Part shown: piece after piece, positions 20,528 to 31,583 of the stretch
Position numbering within the stretch: position 1 is the stretch's first letter
Layout of the letters: every line of letters starts with the position of its first letter
From: Lachnospiraceae bacterium
GTDB lineage: Bacteria > Bacillota > Clostridia > Lachnospirales > Lachnospiraceae
Direction of reading: 5' to 3'
NCBI GenBank assembly: GCA_017520425.1
Contig: JAFXFO010000010.1
Coordinates: 1 to 47,256, forward strand
DNA length: 47,256 bases
Notes under the pieces: generated by a model
Seen by the model: the letters and a program-made list of their open reading frames with translations, nothing else
The model's database searches: none
Told to the model about the DNA's origin: nothing
Program-made: the position numbers and the translations under genes

Positions 20528-20992
20528 ATGAGAATCGGTGACAATTGGTCGGTGGCCATGAACCCTCAGATGCCCGGTGTGACGGGAGTGGCAGGAATCG
20601 GTGACGAGAAGACTGCCGGTAAGGTGCAGGGAGTGCAAAAAGGCGAATGCCAGACCTGTAAGGAGCGCAAGTATCAGGACGGCTCCGACGAGATGGTGAG
20701 TTTCAAAGCGGCAGCGCATATTTCACCGGAGGCTTCGGCAGCTACGGTGCGTTCCCATGAACAGGAGCATGTATCCAATGCCTATAAAAAGGCGGCTTTA
20801 GGTGACGGTAAGGTTTTGCAGGCCAGTGTGCGGTTGCAGACAGCCATCTGTCCGGAATGCGGCAGAAGCTATGTGGCAGGCGGTACCACCACTACTAAGA
20901 TAAAGTATAATGAGGATACGCCTTACGGAAAGGAACGAAAGGCTGCGCAGGCAGAAGCGGCTAAGGGGAATCATGTAGATGCTGCGTGTTAA
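20528..20992 (+). CDS. SprA-related putative metalloprotease-like protein
   Basis: This 154-aa protein resembles the SprA-related family (CJM1_0395-type). Visible signatures are CQTCKERKYQDGSDE (Cys41, Cys44), SFKAAAHISPEASA, HEQEH (77-81, an HExxH-type zinc motif) and CPECGRSYVAGG (Cys108, Cys111). The four cysteines probably form a zinc site. I chose the ATG at 20528 for its ideal AAAGGAGG site; an upstream ATG at 20501 is weaker. Biochemical activity of the family is not established. A stator-like gene follows 50 bp later, so it may belong to the same transcript. Confidence 0.8.
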   Translation: MRIGDNWSVAMNPQMPGVTGVAGIGDEKTAGKVQGVQKGECQTCKERKYQDGSDEMVSFKAAAHISPEASAATVRSHEQEHVSNAYKKAALGDGKVLQASVRLQTAICPECGRSYVAGGTTTTKIKYNEDTPYGKERKAAQAEAAKGNHVDAAC

Positions 20993-21042
20993 TACAGGGG
21001 AGAGGTGCCGGTAGGGCGCCTGTTGTAATGAGGAGGAATGTT

Positions 21043-22194
21043 ATGAAAAACAGGATGTACTATTTTTTGTTTCTGTGCTACATCGCCATGGTATTTGTGA
21101 TATTGTATATCAATGGTGTATTTACAGGCGAGATGACAGATACAGCCAATCTGGTGATTAATGTAGGTTTTTTAGTAATCATCGGTATTTTGTTTTTGGT
21201 TTCAACCGCAAGCTTTATACGATTGAATCGCTGTACGGATGCCTTGGTGAAGGTGACTGACAAGGTTTATAAGGCATATGACGGAGGCAATCACAAGCTT
21301 TGGGAAGAATATGCCAAGAAGAAACAGCCCTTTGGGGATATGGTATTGGACGATGCTTTTTTTCGTTATCAGAAGAGAATGAGAATCTATCAGACCAAGA
21401 GAGGTTTAATAGGGGCTGCAGATATAGAAGATTATATCAATGAGGATGTAATCAACAGAGTAGGAAAAACTTACTTTAACTCAGCTATCTCAGGAACCAT
21501 GACCGGTCTTGGTATTTTGGGTACCTTTATCGGTTTGTCCATGGGCTTGGGCTCTTTTAACGGTAATGATATTTATACCATATCAGAGAATATAGGACCT
21601 TTATTAGAGGGTATGAAGGTGGCTTTTCATACCTCCGTGTACGGTATTTTCTTCTCCCTGATTTTTACCTTTGTGTACAGGGGGATTATGTCCGATGCTT
21701 ATGAAAAGCTGGAGGAGTTTTTAGATTGCTTCAGAGAGTGCGTGGAGCCGGTGGTGATTACTGCGGATGAAAACAGTAAGGCCATGCTGATTTATCAGGC
21801 CAACATTGCCAATTCCATCAAGCATATGACCGAGCTTTTGCAGGGCAATGCCATGGAGCAGACCAAGAGTCTGGAAGTCATCGTAAATCAGTTTATGAAG
21901 CAGATGGAGCAGAGCATGGGAAGCTGCTTTGCACGTATGGGGGATTCTCTTTCACAGGCTTGTGAAGCACAGCAGATTTATGCGGAGAATTATAAGAGCA
22001 TGGAGGATACCACCAGACAGCTTCTGGGTGCCAGTCTGACCTTACAGCAGACTTTGGAAGCCACTATGGCCAATCAGGAGGCACTGGCAAGAGAATTGAA
22101 GGCACAGCAGGAGAAGATTGAACAAACCTGCGATACCATAAATGACGAAATCAGCAGTCAGTTGTATACCTTTGGTTTACTGAAGGACATGTAG
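21043..22194 (+). CDS. MotA/TolQ/ExbB-type proton channel subunit with coiled tail (ZorA-like)
   Basis: This 383-aa protein has four membrane helices (~5-25, ~37-58, ~147-170, ~193-214). The MotA/TolQ/ExbB signature GTMTGLGILGTFIGLSMGLG sits in helix 3 and AFHTSVYGIFFSLIF in helix 4. A ~165-residue C-terminal helical, Gln/Glu-rich tail follows. Two N-terminal helices plus a long cytoplasmic tail are more like ZorA or a MotA variant than a short ExbB. AGGAGG lies six bases before the ATG at 21043. The partner OmpA/MotB-like gene follows after 36 bp. No flagellar genes or ZorC/D/E are nearby. It is predicted to use the ion gradient to rotate or pull its partner. Confidence 0.82.
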   Translation: MKNRMYYFLFLCYIAMVFVILYINGVFTGEMTDTANLVINVGFLVIIGILFLVSTASFIRLNRCTDALVKVTDKVYKAYDGGNHKLWEEYAKKKQPFGDMVLDDAFFRYQKRMRIYQTKRGLIGAADIEDYINEDVINRVGKTYFNSAISGTMTGLGILGTFIGLSMGLGSFNGNDIYTISENIGPLLEGMKVAFHTSVYGIFFSLIFTFVYRGIMSDAYEKLEEFLDCFRECVEPVVITADENSKAMLIYQANIANSIKHMTELLQGNAMEQTKSLEVIVNQFMKQMEQSMGSCFARMGDSLSQACEAQQIYAENYKSMEDTTRQLLGASLTLQQTLEATMANQEALARELKAQQEKIEQTCDTINDEISSQLYTFGLLKDM

Positions 22195-22230
22195 TAGTGG
22201 TTGCACATTTGCAGCAGATTGAGAGGTTTT

Positions 22231-23157
22231 ATGAGCAAAAACAGAAGAAATAAGGCCGCTTACGGAGAAGAAAGCTATTGGCAGTCTTATTCCGATATGA
22301 TGGCGGCGTTGTTATTGATTTTTATATTGATTATCGCCATCACTTTGGCGATTTACAAGCAGAAGACCAATACTCTGGAGCTGACCCAGACAGAGCTGGA
22401 TAAGGCTTCCATCGCCTTAAAAGAGGCTTCGGATGAGTTGGAACTGGCGAAGCTGGATTTGGAAAGCTATCGTTTGGAGATTGATGCCTCCAAGACGGAG
22501 CTGGAGAATTCCCTGATAAAGCTTCAGGATGCCTATCAGGAGGCCCAGTTGACCAAGGAAGAACTGGATGCAGCGTATTTGGAGATTGATAACGCGAAAG
22601 CAGAGCTTTCCTATACCAAGACCGAACTGAAGAATATCGTAGGCATCCGTACGGATATTATCGGCGAGCTCCAGAGCAAGTTCAACAATTCCAGTATGAG
22701 AGTGGACCCGGTGAATGGTTCCATTACCTTTTCATCAGATGTATTGTTTGACTACGGTAAGTCCACCCTGACAGATAGCAGTAAGGATGCGTTAAAGGAG
22801 ATTATTCCTATTTATCTGAACGTCCTTCTGCAGGATGCGTATAAGGACTATATTGCGGAGATTATCATCGAAGGACATACGGATACTTCCGGTACCTACA
22901 AGACCAATATGGAGCTTTCAACAGAGCGTGCCATGGCGGTTGCGCAGTTTTGTCTGGATAAAAAGAACGGTTTGAATGAGAAGCAGATTAGTCGTCTGCA
23001 GACCATGCTGACAGTGAATGGACGTTCCTTCAGTTCACCGGTATACAAGGCAAATTCGCAAGTGATTGATATGGAAGCTTCCAGACGAGTGGAGATTAAG
23101 TTCCGCTTAAAGGAAGATGAAATGATAGAAAAAATAGCAGAAATCTTAGGACAGTAA
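22231..23157 (+). CDS. MotB/OmpA-family stator partner with coiled coil (ZorB-like)
   Basis: This 308-aa protein has one N-terminal membrane helix with an acidic residue at its start (SYSDMMAALLLIFILI, Asp22), the expected proton-binding Asp of MotB/ZorB/ExbD proteins. A ~100-residue coiled coil of repeating ELxxA blocks (~42-140) precedes a C-terminal OmpA-like peptidoglycan-binding domain (~161-308; LFDYGKSTL and GHTDTSG). GAGAGG precedes the ATG at 22231; an in-frame TTG at 22201 is less likely. The host is probably monoderm, so binding would be to the cell wall. It forms a pair with the preceding gene. Confidence 0.85.
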   Translation: MSKNRRNKAAYGEESYWQSYSDMMAALLLIFILIIAITLAIYKQKTNTLELTQTELDKASIALKEASDELELAKLDLESYRLEIDASKTELENSLIKLQDAYQEAQLTKEELDAAYLEIDNAKAELSYTKTELKNIVGIRTDIIGELQSKFNNSSMRVDPVNGSITFSSDVLFDYGKSTLTDSSKDALKEIIPIYLNVLLQDAYKDYIAEIIIEGHTDTSGTYKTNMELSTERAMAVAQFCLDKKNGLNEKQISRLQTMLTVNGRSFSSPVYKANSQVIDMEASRRVEIKFRLKEDEMIEKIAEILGQ

Positions 23158-23878: not shown

Positions 23879-26530
23879 ATGAGCAGAAAGTCTGAAAAAT
23901 TGGTGATGGGGATTTTGGCCCATGTAGATGCCGGCAAGACAACGCTGGCAGAGCAAATATTGTATGTATCGGGAGGCATCCGTAAACTGGGACGAGTGGA
24001 CCATGGGGATGCTTTTTTGGATTCCCATGAATTGGAGAGAAGTAGGGGTATCACCATTTTCTCCAAGCAGGCTGAGGTGCTTCTGAAAACAGAGAGCGGA
24101 GAACGACAAATCACATTGCTGGACACACCGGGACATGTGGACTTTTCTGCAGAAACGGAGCGTACTCTGCAGGTACTGGATGCAGCAATATTGGTCATCA
24201 GTGGGGCAGATGGTGTACAGGGGCATGTTGAGACTCTATGGAAGCTGTTAAAAAGATATGAAATACCGGTATTTATATTTGTTAATAAAATGGACCAGGC
24301 AGGTACGGACCGGGAAGCATTGCTGGCAGAACTGAAGACGAAGCTACATGAGAACTGTGTGAATTTCGAACAGCTGGAGACAGGGGATTCAGATATCATG
24401 GAGGCCGCAGCCATGTGCTCAGAGCAGCTGATGGAGCAATATCTGGAACAAGGCGAATTTGCGCCGGAAAGCCTGAAGGAGGCTATCGCAACCAGGAAAA
24501 TATTTCCCTGTTTTTTCGGTTCTGCACTGAAGGGTGTAGGAGTGGAAGAATTTTTGGAAGGACTGGTGAAGTATACCACACTGCCTGTGTATCAGGATGC
24601 CTTTGCGGCAAGAGTGTATAAAATCAGCCGGGATAATAATGGGAACCGCCTGACACATTTGAAGGTACTGGGCGGAGCCTTAAAAGTAAAGCAGATGATT
24701 GGTGAAGAGAAGGCAGACCAGCTGCGTATTTACAATGGTACTTCCTTCCGGCTGGCGGATGTGGTCAATGCCGGAGGAATCTGTGCAGTCACCGGCCTGT
24801 CGGATACCTTCTGCGGACAGGGACTGGGAGTAGCAGGGGAAGGCGAAGCACCGGTATTGGTTCCGGTATTGAATTATAAATTGGAGTTGCCGGAAGGCTG
24901 TGATGTGCATAAGATGCTGAAGAACCTGTATCTCTTGGAGGAAGAAATACCGGAGCTTCATATAGTATGGAGAGAACAGAGCAACGAAATCCATGCCCAG
25001 GTTATGGGAGAGGTGCAGGTAGAGATATTAAAGAATATTATTGAGAAACGTTTCGGGATAACCGTAGAGTTTGGCAATGGCAGTATTGTGTATAAGGAGA
25101 CCATCTTGGAGCCTGTGGAAGGCATCGGACATTTTGAACCCCTGCGTCATTATGCAGAGGTGCATTTGTTACTGGAACCCTTGGAGCCGGGAAGCGGTTT
25201 GGTGTTTGCTACGGATTGTTGTGAAGATGATTTGGATAAGAACTGGCAGAGACTGATACTTACCCATTTGGAGGAAAAGGCCCATGTGGGAGTGCTGACC
25301 GGGTCAGAGATTACGGATATGAAGATTACCCTCATTGCAGGAAGGGCACATCTGAAGCATACGGAAGGCGGTGACTTCCGTCAGGCCACTTACCGGGCAG
25401 TACGCCACGGATTAAAGCGGGGAAAGTGCCGGCTGTTGGAACCGATTTATGAGTTTAGTCTGGAAATCCCTACGGAATGTTTAGGTCGTGCCATGAACGA
25501 TATACAGCGAATGAAGGGAAGTTTTGAGGATCCCCAGACCTTTGGAGAGATGTCTTTACTTACCGGTGCAGCACCGGTAGTAAATATGAACGGTTATCCT
25601 TCGGAGGTAATTTCCTATAGCCGGGGAAGAGGAAGGCTTAGCTGTCGTTTCAAGGGTTACGAGCCCTGTCATAATGAGGAAGAAATTATAGCAGCCTATG
25701 GCTATGATTCGGAGCATGATTTGGAGAATCCTACAGGTTCTGTCTTTTGTGCACACGGTGCAGGGTTTTATGTGGACTGGCAGCAGGTGGCAGAGTATGC
25801 CCATGTGGACAGTGGTTGGAGCGGTCCTGTAGAAGCACAGGAGGATACCGACGACCCGGAACAGGTGCTTACCAATACATCCTCCTATGATGATCGATTC
25901 ATCAGTCAGGAAGAAATAGAGGAAATTTATGAACGAACCTTTGGTCACCGTGCCAAGGACAAAAATCCATGGAATCGTCCGGTGAGCCGTACCGTCACCG
26001 CACCACCTAAGGAAGTGGTTTACAACCTGAAAAAGCAGGAGAAGTTGAAGGAATATCTCCTAGTGGATGGTTACAATATTATCTTCGCCTGGGAGGACTT
26101 GAAGGAGCTTTCAAAGACCAATGTAGAGTCTGCCCGAAGTAAGCTTCTGGATATCCTGTGCAACTATCAGGGTTATATGAAAAATACTTTAATCGTGGTA
26201 TTCGATGCCTACAAAGTCAAGGGCAATCCGGGCAGTGTATCCAAATACCACAACATCTATGTAGTGTATACCAAGGAGGCCGAAACGGCTGACCAATATA
26301 TCGAAAAGACAGTTCATGAAATCGGTCGTAAATACCATGTGACGGTAGCCACTTCCGATGCCTTAGAGCAAATGATTATCTGGGGACAGGGTGCTACCAG
26401 ACTTTCTGCCCAGGGACTCCGGGAGGAAATAGAGTCTGTGGGAAGGCAGCGGCAGGAGGACTGGAAGGCCGACAACCCGGGAGAACGCTACTTCCCCTTT
26501 GAAGCCCTGCTGAAGAAGGAAGATGAGTAG
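23879..26530 (+). CDS. Tet(M)/EF-G-like ribosomal GTPase fused to a C-terminal YacP/Rae1-type NYN nuclease domain
   Basis: This 883-aa protein has an EF-G/Tet(M)-class GTPase part with AHVDAGKTT (14-22), RGITI (56-60), DTPGH (82-86) and NKMD (136-139). Domains II-V follow to ~640, including GRAMNDIQRMKGSF and a GYDSEHDLENPTGSVFCAHG block typical of Tet-like factors. A linker leads to an NYN/PIN-like domain (~724-883): LLVDGYNIIFAW (Asp730), VVFDAYK, ETADQYIE and VATSDALEQ supply the acidic residues of YacP-family RNases. B. subtilis YacP (Rae1) is a ribosome-A-site mRNA endonuclease, and Tet(M) binds the same region, so a ribosome-targeted mRNA-cleaving GTPase is inferred. I chose the ATG at 23879 after GAGGG; an in-frame ATG at 23837 lies in a hairpin loop. 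Tetracycline resistance is possible but not shown. Confidence 0.88.
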   Translation: MSRKSEKLVMGILAHVDAGKTTLAEQILYVSGGIRKLGRVDHGDAFLDSHELERSRGITIFSKQAEVLLKTESGERQITLLDTPGHVDFSAETERTLQVLDAAILVISGADGVQGHVETLWKLLKRYEIPVFIFVNKMDQAGTDREALLAELKTKLHENCVNFEQLETGDSDIMEAAAMCSEQLMEQYLEQGEFAPESLKEAIATRKIFPCFFGSALKGVGVEEFLEGLVKYTTLPVYQDAFAARVYKISRDNNGNRLTHLKVLGGALKVKQMIGEEKADQLRIYNGTSFRLADVVNAGGICAVTGLSDTFCGQGLGVAGEGEAPVLVPVLNYKLELPEGCDVHKMLKNLYLLEEEIPELHIVWREQSNEIHAQVMGEVQVEILKNIIEKRFGITVEFGNGSIVYKETILEPVEGIGHFEPLRHYAEVHLLLEPLEPGSGLVFATDCCEDDLDKNWQRLILTHLEEKAHVGVLTGSEITDMKITLIAGRAHLKHTEGGDFRQATYRAVRHGLKRGKCRLLEPIYEFSLEIPTECLGRAMNDIQRMKGSFEDPQTFGEMSLLTGAAPVVNMNGYPSEVISYSRGRGRLSCRFKGYEPCHNEEEIIAAYGYDSEHDLENPTGSVFCAHGAGFYVDWQQVAEYAHVDSGWSGPVEAQEDTDDPEQVLTNTSSYDDRFISQEEIEEIYERTFGHRAKDKNPWNRPVSRTVTAPPKEVVYNLKKQEKLKEYLLVDGYNIIFAWEDLKELSKTNVESARSKLLDILCNYQGYMKNTLIVVFDAYKVKGNPGSVSKYHNIYVVYTKEAETADQYIEKTVHEIGRKYHVTVATSDALEQMIIWGQGATRLSAQGLREEIESVGRQRQEDWKADNPGERYFPFEALLKKEDE

Positions 26531-26548
26531 GACTCACCCACGAAACCC

Positions 26549-26774
26549 AATGGGGCTGCATATACTCTGCGATTGTTGCTTGCGAGGATATATGAATTTC
26601 TTAGTGTTTTGCTCGATATTCAGCCATTTCCGAACACGATGTTCGGAAAAGACACATCCAGTCCATGGACGGACTGTATGTGTCGGTGGCGGGAGTTAGA
26701 TGCGATGATATCAAAACACTTAGAAATACTTATGTCCGAGTGCGCAACATATGCAGAGTATATGCAGCCCCATT
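26549..26774. repeat. 226-bp long inverted-repeat element between convergent genes (MITE-like or structured RNA)
   Basis: A 63-nt arm (26549-26611) is the inverted complement of 26712-26774 without gaps. The outer 22 bp are perfect and the inner 41 match at about 29 positions. The 100-nt centre holds two further hairpins: TTTCCGAAC/GTTCGGAAA (26627-26649) and a 14-bp stem with one mismatch (26651-26664 with 26671-26684). Pairing may extend outward (CTCAC near 26532, GTGAG near 26780). It fills the gap between the GTPase stop (26530) and the minus-strand gerA stop (26792). No clear target-site duplication or transposase is seen. Confidence 0.75.
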
Positions 26775-28358: not shown

Positions 28359-28718
28359 ATGAACGAAATAAAATTAGGAGCCATAGAATCCAGATTTGCA
28401 GATATCATCTGGAACAATGAGCCGCTGCGTCCCAAGGAGCTGGAAGCCTTGGCTGAGGCGGAGCTGGGCTGGAAAAGAACCACCACTCTGACCATATTAA
28501 AAAGACTGTGTGAGAGAGGGATTTTTCAAAATAAAGAGCGGATTATTACTTCTCTGATCAGTCGGGAGGAGTTTTATGCCTTGCAGAGCGAGAAGTTTGT
28601 GAATGATACCTTTGAAGGGTCGCTTCCGGCTTTTCTGGCGGCCTTTGGTTCCAGGAAGAAGTTGACAAGCGAGGAAGTGGAGGAACTGAAAAAGGTCATC
28701 GATAAGATGAGGGGGTAG
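28359..28718 (+). CDS. BlaI/MecI/CopY-family transcriptional repressor
   Basis: This 119-aa protein has a winged-helix domain (~5-75; IESRFADIIWNNEPLRPKELE, then WKRTTTLTILKRLCERG) and a C-terminal dimerisation helix. In the family, cleavage of the dimer domain triggered by a membrane M56 protease relieves repression. The M56 gene follows 6 bp later and dyads lie in the promoter. AGAGGG precedes the ATG. Confidence 0.93.
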   Translation: MNEIKLGAIESRFADIIWNNEPLRPKELEALAEAELGWKRTTTLTILKRLCERGIFQNKERIITSLISREEFYALQSEKFVNDTFEGSLPAFLAAFGSRKKLTSEEVEELKKVIDKMRG

Positions 28719-28724
28719 AAAAGT

Positions 28725-31583
28725 ATGTGGTATGAGATTTTACCAAGAATATTGAATATGAGTCTTACGGCAGCGGTGATTATTCTATTTGTGTGTATTT
28801 GCAGACTGCTTTTGAAAAAGGCACCCAAGATATATTCATATGCTTTGTGGAGTGTGGTTTTATTCCGTCTGCTTTGCCCTGTATCCTTGTCGGCACCTGT
28901 GTCTCTTTTGGGCATGTTTCATACGCCGGTAGCGGAGGTGGCCACGCAAGATGCTTCTGTGACTTCGGAGGGAGAACATGTTTCCGCCGGTACCGCCAGT
29001 GCAGTAGAATATATTCCTTTTCAGATTGTGCATGAGGCGAAACCGGAGATTTCGCTACCCGTTGGGGGAAGTGAAGGTGTGGTAGCGGAAACCATCAATC
29101 AGGCACTGCCTCAGGGAGAAGAACAGTTGGGTGCGGATCCGCTGGAGGCACCGGTCAGCCTGTTTACTTATTTGTGGTTACTTGGCATCCTGGTGATGAT
29201 AGGAAGGGGCGTGGTGTCCTATATCAGATTACGTCATCAGCTGACAGGAGCCCTGCTTTTGAAGGAGAATATTTATCTGGCAGACCATATCCCCGGTCCT
29301 TTTGTGATGGGGATTATAAAGCCGAAGATTTATCTGCCCTCGGATTTGCAGGAAAAGGAATACTCCTACATTATCCTGCATGAGAAGCATCATATCCGCA
29401 GGGGGGACCATATTTTCAAGGTGTTAGGATATCTGGCGCTGAGTATCCATTGGTTCAATCCCTTAGTATGGATTGCTTTCCGACTTTTTGTGAAGGATAT
29501 GGAAATGAGCTGTGACGAAGCTGTACTTCGTAAGTTGGGAGAAGAAATTCTTGCAGATTATTCTGCATCTTTGCTACAGTTTGCGGCAGGACAGAAGGCT
29601 GTGTACGGTACCCCGCTTGCCTTTGGAGAAGGGGAAACCAAAGGGCGTATCCGTAACCTTTCGGCATGGAAGAAGCCCGGGAGAATTATTTCCGTGGTTG
29701 CCATTGTTTTATGTGTGATAGCTATATTATTTTGCTTCTTTAATCCCACTTTGGTGAAGGAAGTGTTGCATATAAATGGTCCGGGAGTTCATTTGCCTAC
29801 ACTTACGCAGGAGAAGCTGGAAGCCCTGTATCAGCAGGAGTTTGACAGATACAATGATAAGCTTCCCGGTGATGTAATGTTCGGTTTTGAATCCTTGTCC
29901 TATAACGGAAAGATTTACACGAAGGGGCGCGATGAAGCCATTAATATCGTATATCCGGCGGATGTTCCTTCCACACCATGGGACGGATCTTTAGCAGATT
30001 ATCCTTTGGAGAAAATTTGTGATGTATATGGGGAAGTGTTTGTCAAGCCGGTATACGGGGATTTGAATGCAGACGGTCGCTATAGCGATGTGTACGCTTG
30101 GTATGATGATGCAAGCAAGGTGGAAGGGGAGTGTGTACAGGGTACCATTTGGAAGTTTGGAGAATATGATACGGAAAACCTGATTGTACTTACTTCGCCG
30201 GAAGAAGATTCCATGGGAAAAACAGTGTACAGAGTCAATATTTTCTATCATTTGAATGATATAAGCCTTGAAACCGGAAAGGATTTGCTGGATAGGATAC
30301 TGAATCCTCTGAATGCGGATCAGTATGGCGTGAAGAAACAGCCTGAAACATTACGCAGACTTATGGGTGATAATCCGGAAGAGATTTATTTTCTGGGAGA
30401 TGTTTATAAAGGCACCGTGGTTACAGAGAAGGAGGTCAAGGACCCTAATAAGTATGCGGGGATTACGATTCACGAGCAAGAACCATATGACAGAAGCGTT
30501 TACTTTAGGGATTATGGGGACGGAATCATCGGATTTGCTACTCCGGAAGGAAATGTGATTTATATAAAGACTAATTTCAAATCAGAGGGAACGCCGGAAG
30601 TGCAGGGGTATGAGAAAAACAAGGCTGAGGAAATCTATGCCCGGGTGCTGGAGGATTATAAAGAGCTAAGCAGAGTGATATATGGATCGTCTTTGAAGGC
30701 GGATACAGAAGAACTTATGGATGATAATGGTATGATTTACTTTCGGGTGTTGGAAGAGAAGTATCAAAGTATAGAGGATATCGAAAAACTGATGACATCC
30801 GTATTGACTGAAGAATATATCCGCGACCATATGAGCTGGGTGCTGGATGTAGAAAGTCCTCTTTTCAAGGAGTTGGACGGGGAACTTTGTATCGCTATGA
30901 AGGATGCCATAGGTATCGGAATTCCAACCGGGATTCAGACCATTTATCTGTTTGATGAAACACATATGCAATTCCTGGGATATAATGAGGACCATTCCTA
31001 CTTTGTTTCCTTGGTGAAGCAGGGGGACAGATGGTTGATAAATGAATTGGGTATTGCAGGTAACGAGCCAACAAATTATGGAAGAGCCCCGGGAACGGTA
31101 CAGGCATATTTGAGTATGTTCCCGCAGGAACTGGAGGAGATTCTGGCAGAAGGTAAGGCAGTTTATATGGGGCACAATGAATTTGCCAACATAGCTGAAT
31201 GGGAGCGTTTTTTGGAATGTATAAAAAGGGGAGAAGCATCTTCCGTGGTGGTCATGCAGAATACGGACGAAGGAGACCCGATTTTATACTATATCCACTA
31301 TGATGGTATTGATTTTCAGGTGGTAAGGGATACTCACAGGGACCATTTCGGTACGCCTACCTATATTTGGGAGAAGTACCCTTATATGTCTGAAATACGA
31401 CCGGAGGGAACTATCGGATATAGGGTGGTCTTTGCAAAAGAAAAGTTTACAACCGTGGAGGAAGCGGATGCCTATTGGGAGAAGGTCTATGCACTATACC
31501 AGGAAGGCAAGATAGACCCCGATGCAGAGCAGGAATACCAGCCCTTTCCTTTGACCATAAGTACGGTGCGGGAAGAAAAGTAA
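28725..31583 (+). CDS. BlaR1/MecR1-like M56 membrane metalloprotease with a large extracellular C-terminal region
   Basis: This 952-aa protein has an N-terminal M56 protease with flanking membrane helices. Zinc motif HEKHH (~219-223) and the downstream EMSCDEAVL (third ligand Glu) are visible, and a fourth helix lies at ~325-345 (IISVVAIVLCVIAILFCFF). The ~600-residue extracellular part is not the penicillin-binding sensor of BlaR1, as I see no SxxK...KTG pattern. Part of it (~655-770, with YQSIEDIEKLMTSVLTEEYI) resembles IseA-type endopeptidase-inhibitor domains. It probably senses an envelope signal and inactivates the BlaI-like repressor; the ligand is unknown. A hairpin terminator follows. 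Confidence 0.88.
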   Translation: MWYEILPRILNMSLTAAVIILFVCICRLLLKKAPKIYSYALWSVVLFRLLCPVSLSAPVSLLGMFHTPVAEVATQDASVTSEGEHVSAGTASAVEYIPFQIVHEAKPEISLPVGGSEGVVAETINQALPQGEEQLGADPLEAPVSLFTYLWLLGILVMIGRGVVSYIRLRHQLTGALLLKENIYLADHIPGPFVMGIIKPKIYLPSDLQEKEYSYIILHEKHHIRRGDHIFKVLGYLALSIHWFNPLVWIAFRLFVKDMEMSCDEAVLRKLGEEILADYSASLLQFAAGQKAVYGTPLAFGEGETKGRIRNLSAWKKPGRIISVVAIVLCVIAILFCFFNPTLVKEVLHINGPGVHLPTLTQEKLEALYQQEFDRYNDKLPGDVMFGFESLSYNGKIYTKGRDEAINIVYPADVPSTPWDGSLADYPLEKICDVYGEVFVKPVYGDLNADGRYSDVYAWYDDASKVEGECVQGTIWKFGEYDTENLIVLTSPEEDSMGKTVYRVNIFYHLNDISLETGKDLLDRILNPLNADQYGVKKQPETLRRLMGDNPEEIYFLGDVYKGTVVTEKEVKDPNKYAGITIHEQEPYDRSVYFRDYGDGIIGFATPEGNVIYIKTNFKSEGTPEVQGYEKNKAEEIYARVLEDYKELSRVIYGSSLKADTEELMDDNGMIYFRVLEEKYQSIEDIEKLMTSVLTEEYIRDHMSWVLDVESPLFKELDGELCIAMKDAIGIGIPTGIQTIYLFDETHMQFLGYNEDHSYFVSLVKQGDRWLINELGIAGNEPTNYGRAPGTVQAYLSMFPQELEEILAEGKAVYMGHNEFANIAEWERFLECIKRGEASSVVVMQNTDEGDPILYYIHYDGIDFQVVRDTHRDHFGTPTYIWEKYPYMSEIRPEGTIGYRVVFAKEKFTTVEEADAYWEKVYALYQEGKIDPDAEQEYQPFPLTISTVREEK

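Follow-up and report, generated by a model that had tools for sequence, protein, structure and literature searches.

How cells find stalled ribosomes and cut the messenger RNA (mRNA) inside them is an open question, in which the route of the nuclease Rae1 to the A site is unsettled, and among the nucleases brought to troubled ribosomes are the collision factors SmrB and MutS2. Rae1 (YacP) of Bacillus subtilis is described as a translation-dependent endonuclease that cuts mRNA in the ribosomal A site. Elongation factor G (EF-G) and the Tet-type ribosomal protection proteins use overlapping ribosome sites, and Tet(M) reaches the A site by its domain IV, according to PMC8161019 and PMC7456112. 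A protein architecture that unites these two groups, a Tet-like GTPase followed by a YacP-type NYN nuclease, was noted in ten Clostridiales species with an untested resistance idea (Atkinson 2015, PMC4342817). Here we analysed a 47,256-nucleotide stretch of a Lachnospiraceae bacterium (GenBank assembly GCA_017520425.1, contig JAFXFO010000010.1, forward strand; the window), which carries one gene for such a fusion, together with an original prediction that a model had made from its letters.

The window protein is a member of the group noted in 2015, alike in architecture and host group; the present account differs from that of PMC4342817 in that resistance was proposed there, whereas here the fusion is read as a replacement of Rae1, with another domain IV tip and a distribution far wider than ten species. 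Compared with B. subtilis Rae1, the fusion belongs to the same Pfam family, has the same active-site residues and stands in for yacP, but it is joined to a GTPase, has mostly lost the RR tail and is encoded outside the rlmB-yacP-sigH cluster. No functional study of the fusion was found in the literature searched, where subscription papers are poorly covered, and as far as that literature shows, the replacement of yacP, the decay of its slot, the loss of the tail and the distinct domain IV tip are new to print. Because the fusion appears to have replaced the separate Rae1 gene in many related bacteria, it is probably the cell's own ribosome-quality nuclease and not a drug-resistance protein. 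On balance, we favour the reading that it is this genome's Rae1/YacP mounted on an EF-G-like targeting GTPase, having arisen once, spread and replaced yacP, with a proposed GTP-driven cycle.

Fused and standalone YacP in related genomes

The fusion is the only YacP-family (PF05991) gene found in the window's genome, which is about 90% complete, and across its relatives the fused and standalone forms exclude each other, a single genome holding both. Of the 196 genomes in the order sample, 163 had PF05991 genes (66 fused, 98 standalone, 1 both), as did 161 of 245 in the class sample (91 fused, 70 standalone, 0 both); in the union of 430 genomes, 11 being shared between the samples, 149 were fused and 166 standalone, where the assignment is by open-frame length, and both occurred only in G171, where a contig end cuts the fusion and the listed contamination of the genome is 5%. 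Since it was counted in 149 of 430 sampled genomes, the fusion architecture is not a product of chance. Thirteen of the 149 are known to be split, cut or frame-broken (G039, G148, G159, G164, G171, G245, G263, G274, G329, G369, G402, G408, G410). Eight of these 13 were re-read (10 stretches from 8 genomes): the fusions of G410 and G369 are cut by contig ends, the contigs of G402 and G329 begin inside the fusion, and the frames of G039, G164, G245 and G408 are broken. G174, G084 and G322, cut at contig ends, were excluded from both classes. Apparent second YacP copies were rejected as matches of 21 bits below the cut-off (G327, G389, G428), a 17-residue piece of 23 bits (G114), relics in the old slot (G050, G021) or adjoining pieces of one gene (G159, G192).

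A GTPase of the same family without the nuclease, of about 650 amino acids, was found in 22 genomes of the order sample, 21 with standalone YacP and 1 without (G012, 77% complete), and in 13 of the class sample, 7 with and 6 without. Three of these calls (G357, G024, G194) are partial matches, and the G014 protein is 39% identical, matched to residue 606 and placed outside the family clade in the tree; five genomes with 34-38% identical matches only (G097, G149, G337, G243, G308) were set aside as carrying other Tet/EF-G-like proteins. In the phylum sample, matches at E <= 1e-90 came from 20 of 249 genomes; in 16 of these the frame had the length of a fusion (857-917 amino acids). Among the best 80 of 591 relatives, a list biased to fused proteins by the query, named fusion hosts are Robinsoniella, Butyrivibrio, Agathobacter, Intestinimonas butyriciproducens, Ruminococcus flavefaciens, Anaerovorax odorimutans and Fusibacter. 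One genome, G324, carries two different full fusion genes (L181, L182).

The main reason for believing that the fusion does YacP's job is that the slot formerly held by yacP shows a pattern resembling replacement in progress. The cluster order is cysS-mrnC-rlmB-yacP-sigH in G056, a genome with an unfused GTPase and a standalone yacP (NCBIfam identifies cysS, RlmB and SigH, whereas mrnC, for which the search gave no match, is named from size and place only), and sigH adjoins yacP in 7 of 7 standalone loci tested for this neighbour, 12 having been fetched with context; the yacP of G193 has another location. For fused genomes, the slot was read downstream of rlmB in 37 (18 + 19, the latter out of 26 genomes queried, among which fused G411 gave no rlmB); G432, G551 and G581 are called fused by frame length alone. 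Both rlmB and a gene aligned to the G056 SigH were readable in 29 of the 37 (14/18 + 15/19), and none of these 29 readable slots holds an intact yacP between the two; in the window's own genome, the two alignments lie 21 nt apart (L328).

Broken and partly deleted yacP relics are clear in the slots of three genomes from different genera: G050 with three pieces (best 6e-20), and G220 and G021 with two pieces each (8e-13 and 2e-11, respectively). A weak relic was seen in G304 (2e-4) and, at the end of rlmB, a marginal one in G345 (0.024). In G253 the slot still contains an intact yacP, and this genome gives no match to the family GTPase; four congeners of it (G220, G327, G389 and G428) carry the fusion and lack an intact yacP. 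G171 combines the fusion with an intact yacP that adjoins sigH and lies 0.8 kb from rlmB, and its congener G050 combines the fusion with a relic. Such slot states are what replacement in progress would look like.

Fused sequences cluster strongly in both trees, that of the GTPase (93 rows) and that of the NYN domain (106 rows), with 2 changes in each against 24 and 33, respectively, in shuffles. When all 64 fused sequences were held together, the likelihood rose (approximately unbiased test, p-AU 0.899 for the NYN domain and 0.921 for the GTPase with 91 rows), and a single origin of the fusion is thus favoured by these trees, short of proof. Because the hosts are patchy and relics occur, later horizontal spread of the fusion is suggested. 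Spread by phage was rejected as an idea, since 0 of 49 related viral loci match beyond query residue 649, hence none in the NYN domain. Three unfused relatives lie in viral contigs (L270, L271, L299), and the Ligilactobacillus salivarius megaplasmid pMP118 carries an unfused family GTPase, 48.7% identical, adjoining rpsN (L032:3977-5911).

The nuclease, the linker and the GTPase

In the protein, a GTPase (residues 1-642) is joined through a linker (643-725) to a YacP/Rae1 NYN domain (726-868), and all of its Pfam domains score above their cut-offs, EFG_III (residues 329-399) barely so at 28.1 bits against 27. The nuclease half matches NYN_YacP over residues 727-867 (5.1e-49, 166.9 bits against a cut-off of 24.6) and the solved B. 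subtilis YacP structures 5mq8 and 5mq9 at 4.5e-29. An AlphaFold2 model built from a 69-row alignment has a mean predicted local distance difference test score (pLDDT) of 85.5 and a predicted template modelling score of 0.68, with residues 1-650 folded, 654-720 of low confidence and the NYN domain (725-868) folded; the 50 best solved matches by Foldseek are EF-G and its close kin, a ranking driven by the GTPase part.

The acidic NYN motifs announced by the original prediction are present, D730, N733, D776, D805, E809 and D827 being identical in 69 of 69 fused proteins and E802 being Glu in 63 of 69 and Gln in 6; we take these residues to be the catalytic ones from what is known of NYN/PIN nucleases. 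Selection was gauged by the ratio of nonsynonymous to synonymous substitution rates (dN/dS) in ten hand-picked pairs of relatives, with dS >1 in several. The NYN ratio was 0.03-0.15 in 9 of 10 (it was not computable for the saturated pair G083/G005) and the GTPase ratio 0.05-0.14, the linker being higher in most, and by these ratios the NYN domain is under purifying selection. Degeneracy of the nuclease in orthologues, which had been named as a possible failing of the fusion idea, was thus not found in the catalytic core; what has degenerated is the C-terminal tail. Standalone YacP ends in a conserved LEKxRR tail that is absent from the window protein. In a second alignment set for the NYN residues and tail (64 fused, 42 standalone), the first tail arginine is Arg in 42 of 42 standalone proteins and in 2 of 64 fused ones, the other fused proteins including 38 with a gap and 8 with Lys. 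In the B. subtilis YacP chain, residue 165 is the one aligned with this arginine, and PMC6613710 lists R166P with suppressors that its authors interpret as losing rae1 or yacO function. Taken with this suppressor, the loss of the tail arginine fits targeting having passed to the GTPase, and the loss of the tail would then reflect a changed way of bringing the nuclease to the ribosome.

A reading in which GTPase and nuclease are independent, joined merely for co-expression of two ribosome-associated proteins, appears improbable to us. The linker is disordered, ranges from 63 to 147 amino acids in 69 proteins (median 83) and is poorly conserved, with a mean pairwise identity of 0.20 against 0.58 for the GTPase and 0.56 for the NYN domain, and the unfused GTPase occurs without YacP, as does YacP without the GTPase, all of which would suit mere co-expression. 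Against it stands a conserved linker helix (residues 677-688; E679 in 65/69, I683 in 67/69, R686 in 57/69, T687 in 59/69), which is modelled within the low-confidence stretch at a block pLDDT of about 63 and may be a latch or a ribosome contact, as do the loss of the standalone tail in fused proteins and the lack of any secure NYN loss in the fused clade. A candidate loss in L. salivarius, whose row was the only unfused full-length one that a quick tree placed inside the fused clade, was rejected, since that row leaves the clade in the likelier tree with fused sequences held together (p-AU 0.921).

The GTPase half is complete, as the original prediction held, with K20, T59, D82, H86, K137 and D139 in 69 of 69 fused proteins and N136 in 67 of 69; these motifs, including the switch II histidine, and domains III-V are traits of the translational GTPase superfamily. 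Its C-terminal module (residues 600-642) follows domain V, where Tet(M) carries another short C-terminal end in the alignment. Of the 9 unfused relatives aligned, 6 stop where this module does, give or take a few residues, whereas the module is shorter in G170 and G163 and G014 ends differently; the fusion thus resembles an entire GTPase to which a linker and YacP were added. With EF-G the half shares the fold, the G motifs and a tip histidine (H491 aligned to EF-G's His), but it scores 303.6 bits on the EF-G equivalog profile, below the cut-off of 659.4, and the genome has another EF-G/Tet-class gene (G000:C28), presumably EF-G itself.

The suggestion of Atkinson 2015, that of a tetracycline ribosomal protection protein with the nuclease as an extra mode of resistance, is in our judgement distinctly unlikely. 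It has in its favour the five-domain EF-G/Tet fold, a GTPase of about 640 residues like that of Tet(M)/Tet(O) at about 27-30% identity, a best NCBIfam match to tet_protect and records annotated as the TetM/TetW/TetO/TetS family. The description "Tet(M)-like" nevertheless fails beyond the overall fold: the tet_protect match reaches 404.4 bits against a cut-off of 775, the tip loop and C-terminal module are other ones, and the column of Tet(M) Pro509, a residue placed in the tetracycline site (PMC8161019 and PMC7456112), holds Lys in 62 of 64 fused proteins and in 21 of the 24 unfused ones, with Pro in 0 of 88. Tet(M), (W) and (Q) fall outside the family clade in the GTPase tree, but long branches meet at the root there. 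Unlike tet genes, the fusion is not commonly mobile, since 80% of the query is covered in only 2 of the 1,243 plasmid records that match it at all, and it takes the place of a housekeeping gene. Judged by its sequence, the GTPase half is no classical Tet protein. The prior idea of a translation-quality factor rather than a classical resistance protein gains support, and some genes annotated as TetM/TetW-family tetracycline resistance are probably no resistance genes, which matters for resistome counts. Cleavage of ribosomal or transfer RNA, for ribosome turnover or maturation, in place of mRNA is very improbable: NYN domains were first proposed for rRNA and tRNA maturation (as cited in PMC4342817), but this one lies in PF05991 with the residues of Rae1, itself described as an A-site mRNA nuclease.

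A proposed ribosome-clearing cycle

For the preferred reading, a Rae1/YacP on a targeting GTPase, the following course is proposed. The fusion would have arisen once, spread through Clostridia and taken over the job of the separate yacP, after which the yacP of rlmB-yacP-sigH would have decayed. The GTPase half with GTP would dock at the factor site of a stalled ribosome with its HxKHTEGGDF tip in the decoding centre, GTP hydrolysis would loosen it, and the NYN domain, on a tether of roughly 80 residues, would enter the vacated A site and cut the mRNA; the ribosome left by the cut could be rescued by transfer-messenger RNA (tmRNA), which is present in the window's genome. The data show the architecture, the intact active-site residues, the mutual exclusion with standalone yacP and the loss or decay of yacP in its former slot, whereas that the protein cuts RNA, that it binds ribosomes, in which sequence the steps run and that tmRNA takes over are inferred, as is the delivery of the nuclease to the A site by the GTPase half. 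The specific form of a GTP-gated ribosome-clearing nuclease, in which the GTPase recognises a ribosome that has stalled (or collided), opens its A site and, on GTP hydrolysis, yields that site to the tethered nuclease, recognition having moved from the arginine tail to the GTPase, is offered tentatively, as somewhat short of an even chance. If it is true, standalone Rae1 may cooperate with the unfused family GTPase where both occur. The likeness to SmrB and MutS2 would be one of working only, these proteins being unrelated and no homology being claimed.

Several observations weigh against this reading or limit it. The A site can hold domain IV or the nuclease but not both at once, which requires them to act one after the other or on two ribosomes. 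In the nuclease, the glutamate E802 (E81 in the second alignment set) is Gln in 23 of 64 fused proteins and Glu in 42 of 42 standalone ones, and R120, invariant in the 42 standalone proteins, is Leu in 23 of 64 fused; the NYN core is kept in these alignments, though not every residue invariant in the standalone form. The GTPase frame is broken while the NYN domain is readable in G039 and G164, of the same genus (L399, L400), possibly through decay or assembly error, and G174 and G084 have a fusion-type GTPase cut at a contig end, with no NYN domain found elsewhere in either genome. The unfused GTPase was found where no YacP was found (G012, G223, G228, G255, G271, G371, G394), which argues that it has work of its own, and standalone YacP was found with no family GTPase at E <= 1e-90 in 74 order-sample and 60 class-sample genomes, so YacP needs no such GTPase. 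A single origin implies that the joining of GTPase and nuclease happened once and not repeatedly, and the genomes counted are related to one another and do not stand for independent events. For the question of how stalled ribosomes are found, the fusion offers a direct test, since the two active sites of one protein can be separated and each arrangement exists in natural genomes.

Gene layout and neighbourhood

The features of the gene are collected in the table below. The open frame borne out for the originally predicted span runs from ATG 23879 to a stop at 26528-26530 and encodes 883 amino acids; the same frame is already open from ATG 23837 (897 amino acids). ATG 23879 is preferred as the start because the earlier codon sits within a 15-pair hairpin and GAGGG lies 4 nt ahead of ATG 23879. 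The hairpin is probably the terminator of the upstream LUD gene. It is not conserved upstream of the fusion, since among 77 relatives 13 have a hairpin of at least 8 pairs within the 100 nt upstream, compared with 68 among 800 random stretches, and with these counts a conserved upstream attenuator in the style of tet(M) was dropped.

Table. Features of the fusion gene and its product, with positions in the window
Feature	Position	Strand	Basis
Fusion gene, EF-G/Tet-like GTPase, linker and YacP/Rae1 NYN nuclease, 883 amino acids	23879..26530	+	Open-frame reading, Pfam
15-pair hairpin, past the stop (23810) of the LUD gene upstream and ahead of the start codon	23822..23855	+	Pattern scan
G domain, residues 9-233	23903..24577	+	Pfam GTP_EFTU, 1.1e-50
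EF-G domain IV, residues 402-515	25082..25423	+	Pfam EFG_IV
Domain IV tip loop GRAHLKHTEGGDFR, residues 488-501, replacing Tet(M) loop GLYYSPVSTPADFR; K493 at Tet(M) Pro509	25340..25381	+	Alignments
EF-G domain V, residues 518-600	25430..25678	+	Pfam EFG_C
Small folded C-terminal GTPase module, residues 600-642, SVFCAHGAGF...W...H	25676..25804	+	Alignment, pLDDT, conservation
Variable linker, residues 643-725	25805..26053	+	Alignment, AlphaFold2 model
Conserved short linker helix, residues 677-688, consensus ELxxIFxRTYG	25907..25942	+	Conservation; low-confidence model
NYN_YacP (Rae1-type) nuclease domain, residues 726-868	26054..26482	+	Pfam; match to PDB 5mq8/5mq9
C-terminal end, residues 869-883, without the standalone-YacP LEKxRR tail	26483..26527	+	Alignments

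Neither a conserved operon nor a mobile element was evident, no widely conserved neighbour appearing among 80 named loci and the window. The commonest neighbour is a gene that we guess from its sequence, with no family search, to be RNase H1-like, found within 5 kb in 13 of 81 loci (L192 and L190 among them), 7 copies lying within 300 nt. In the window, a TwoAYGGAY RNA (RF01731, 105.9 bits) lies at 26579-26744 (+), starting 49 nt past the fusion stop in a convergent gap ahead of a GerA germination gene; it was rejected as a part of the system, being present in 0 of 10 related loci examined. A pair made up of a BlaI-like repressor (Penicillinase_R) and a BlaR1-type M56 peptidase occupies 28359-31583, and at 20986-23157, upstream of the LUD-domain gene, a MotA/ExbB-like protein is followed by an OmpA-domain protein in a MotAB-type pair.

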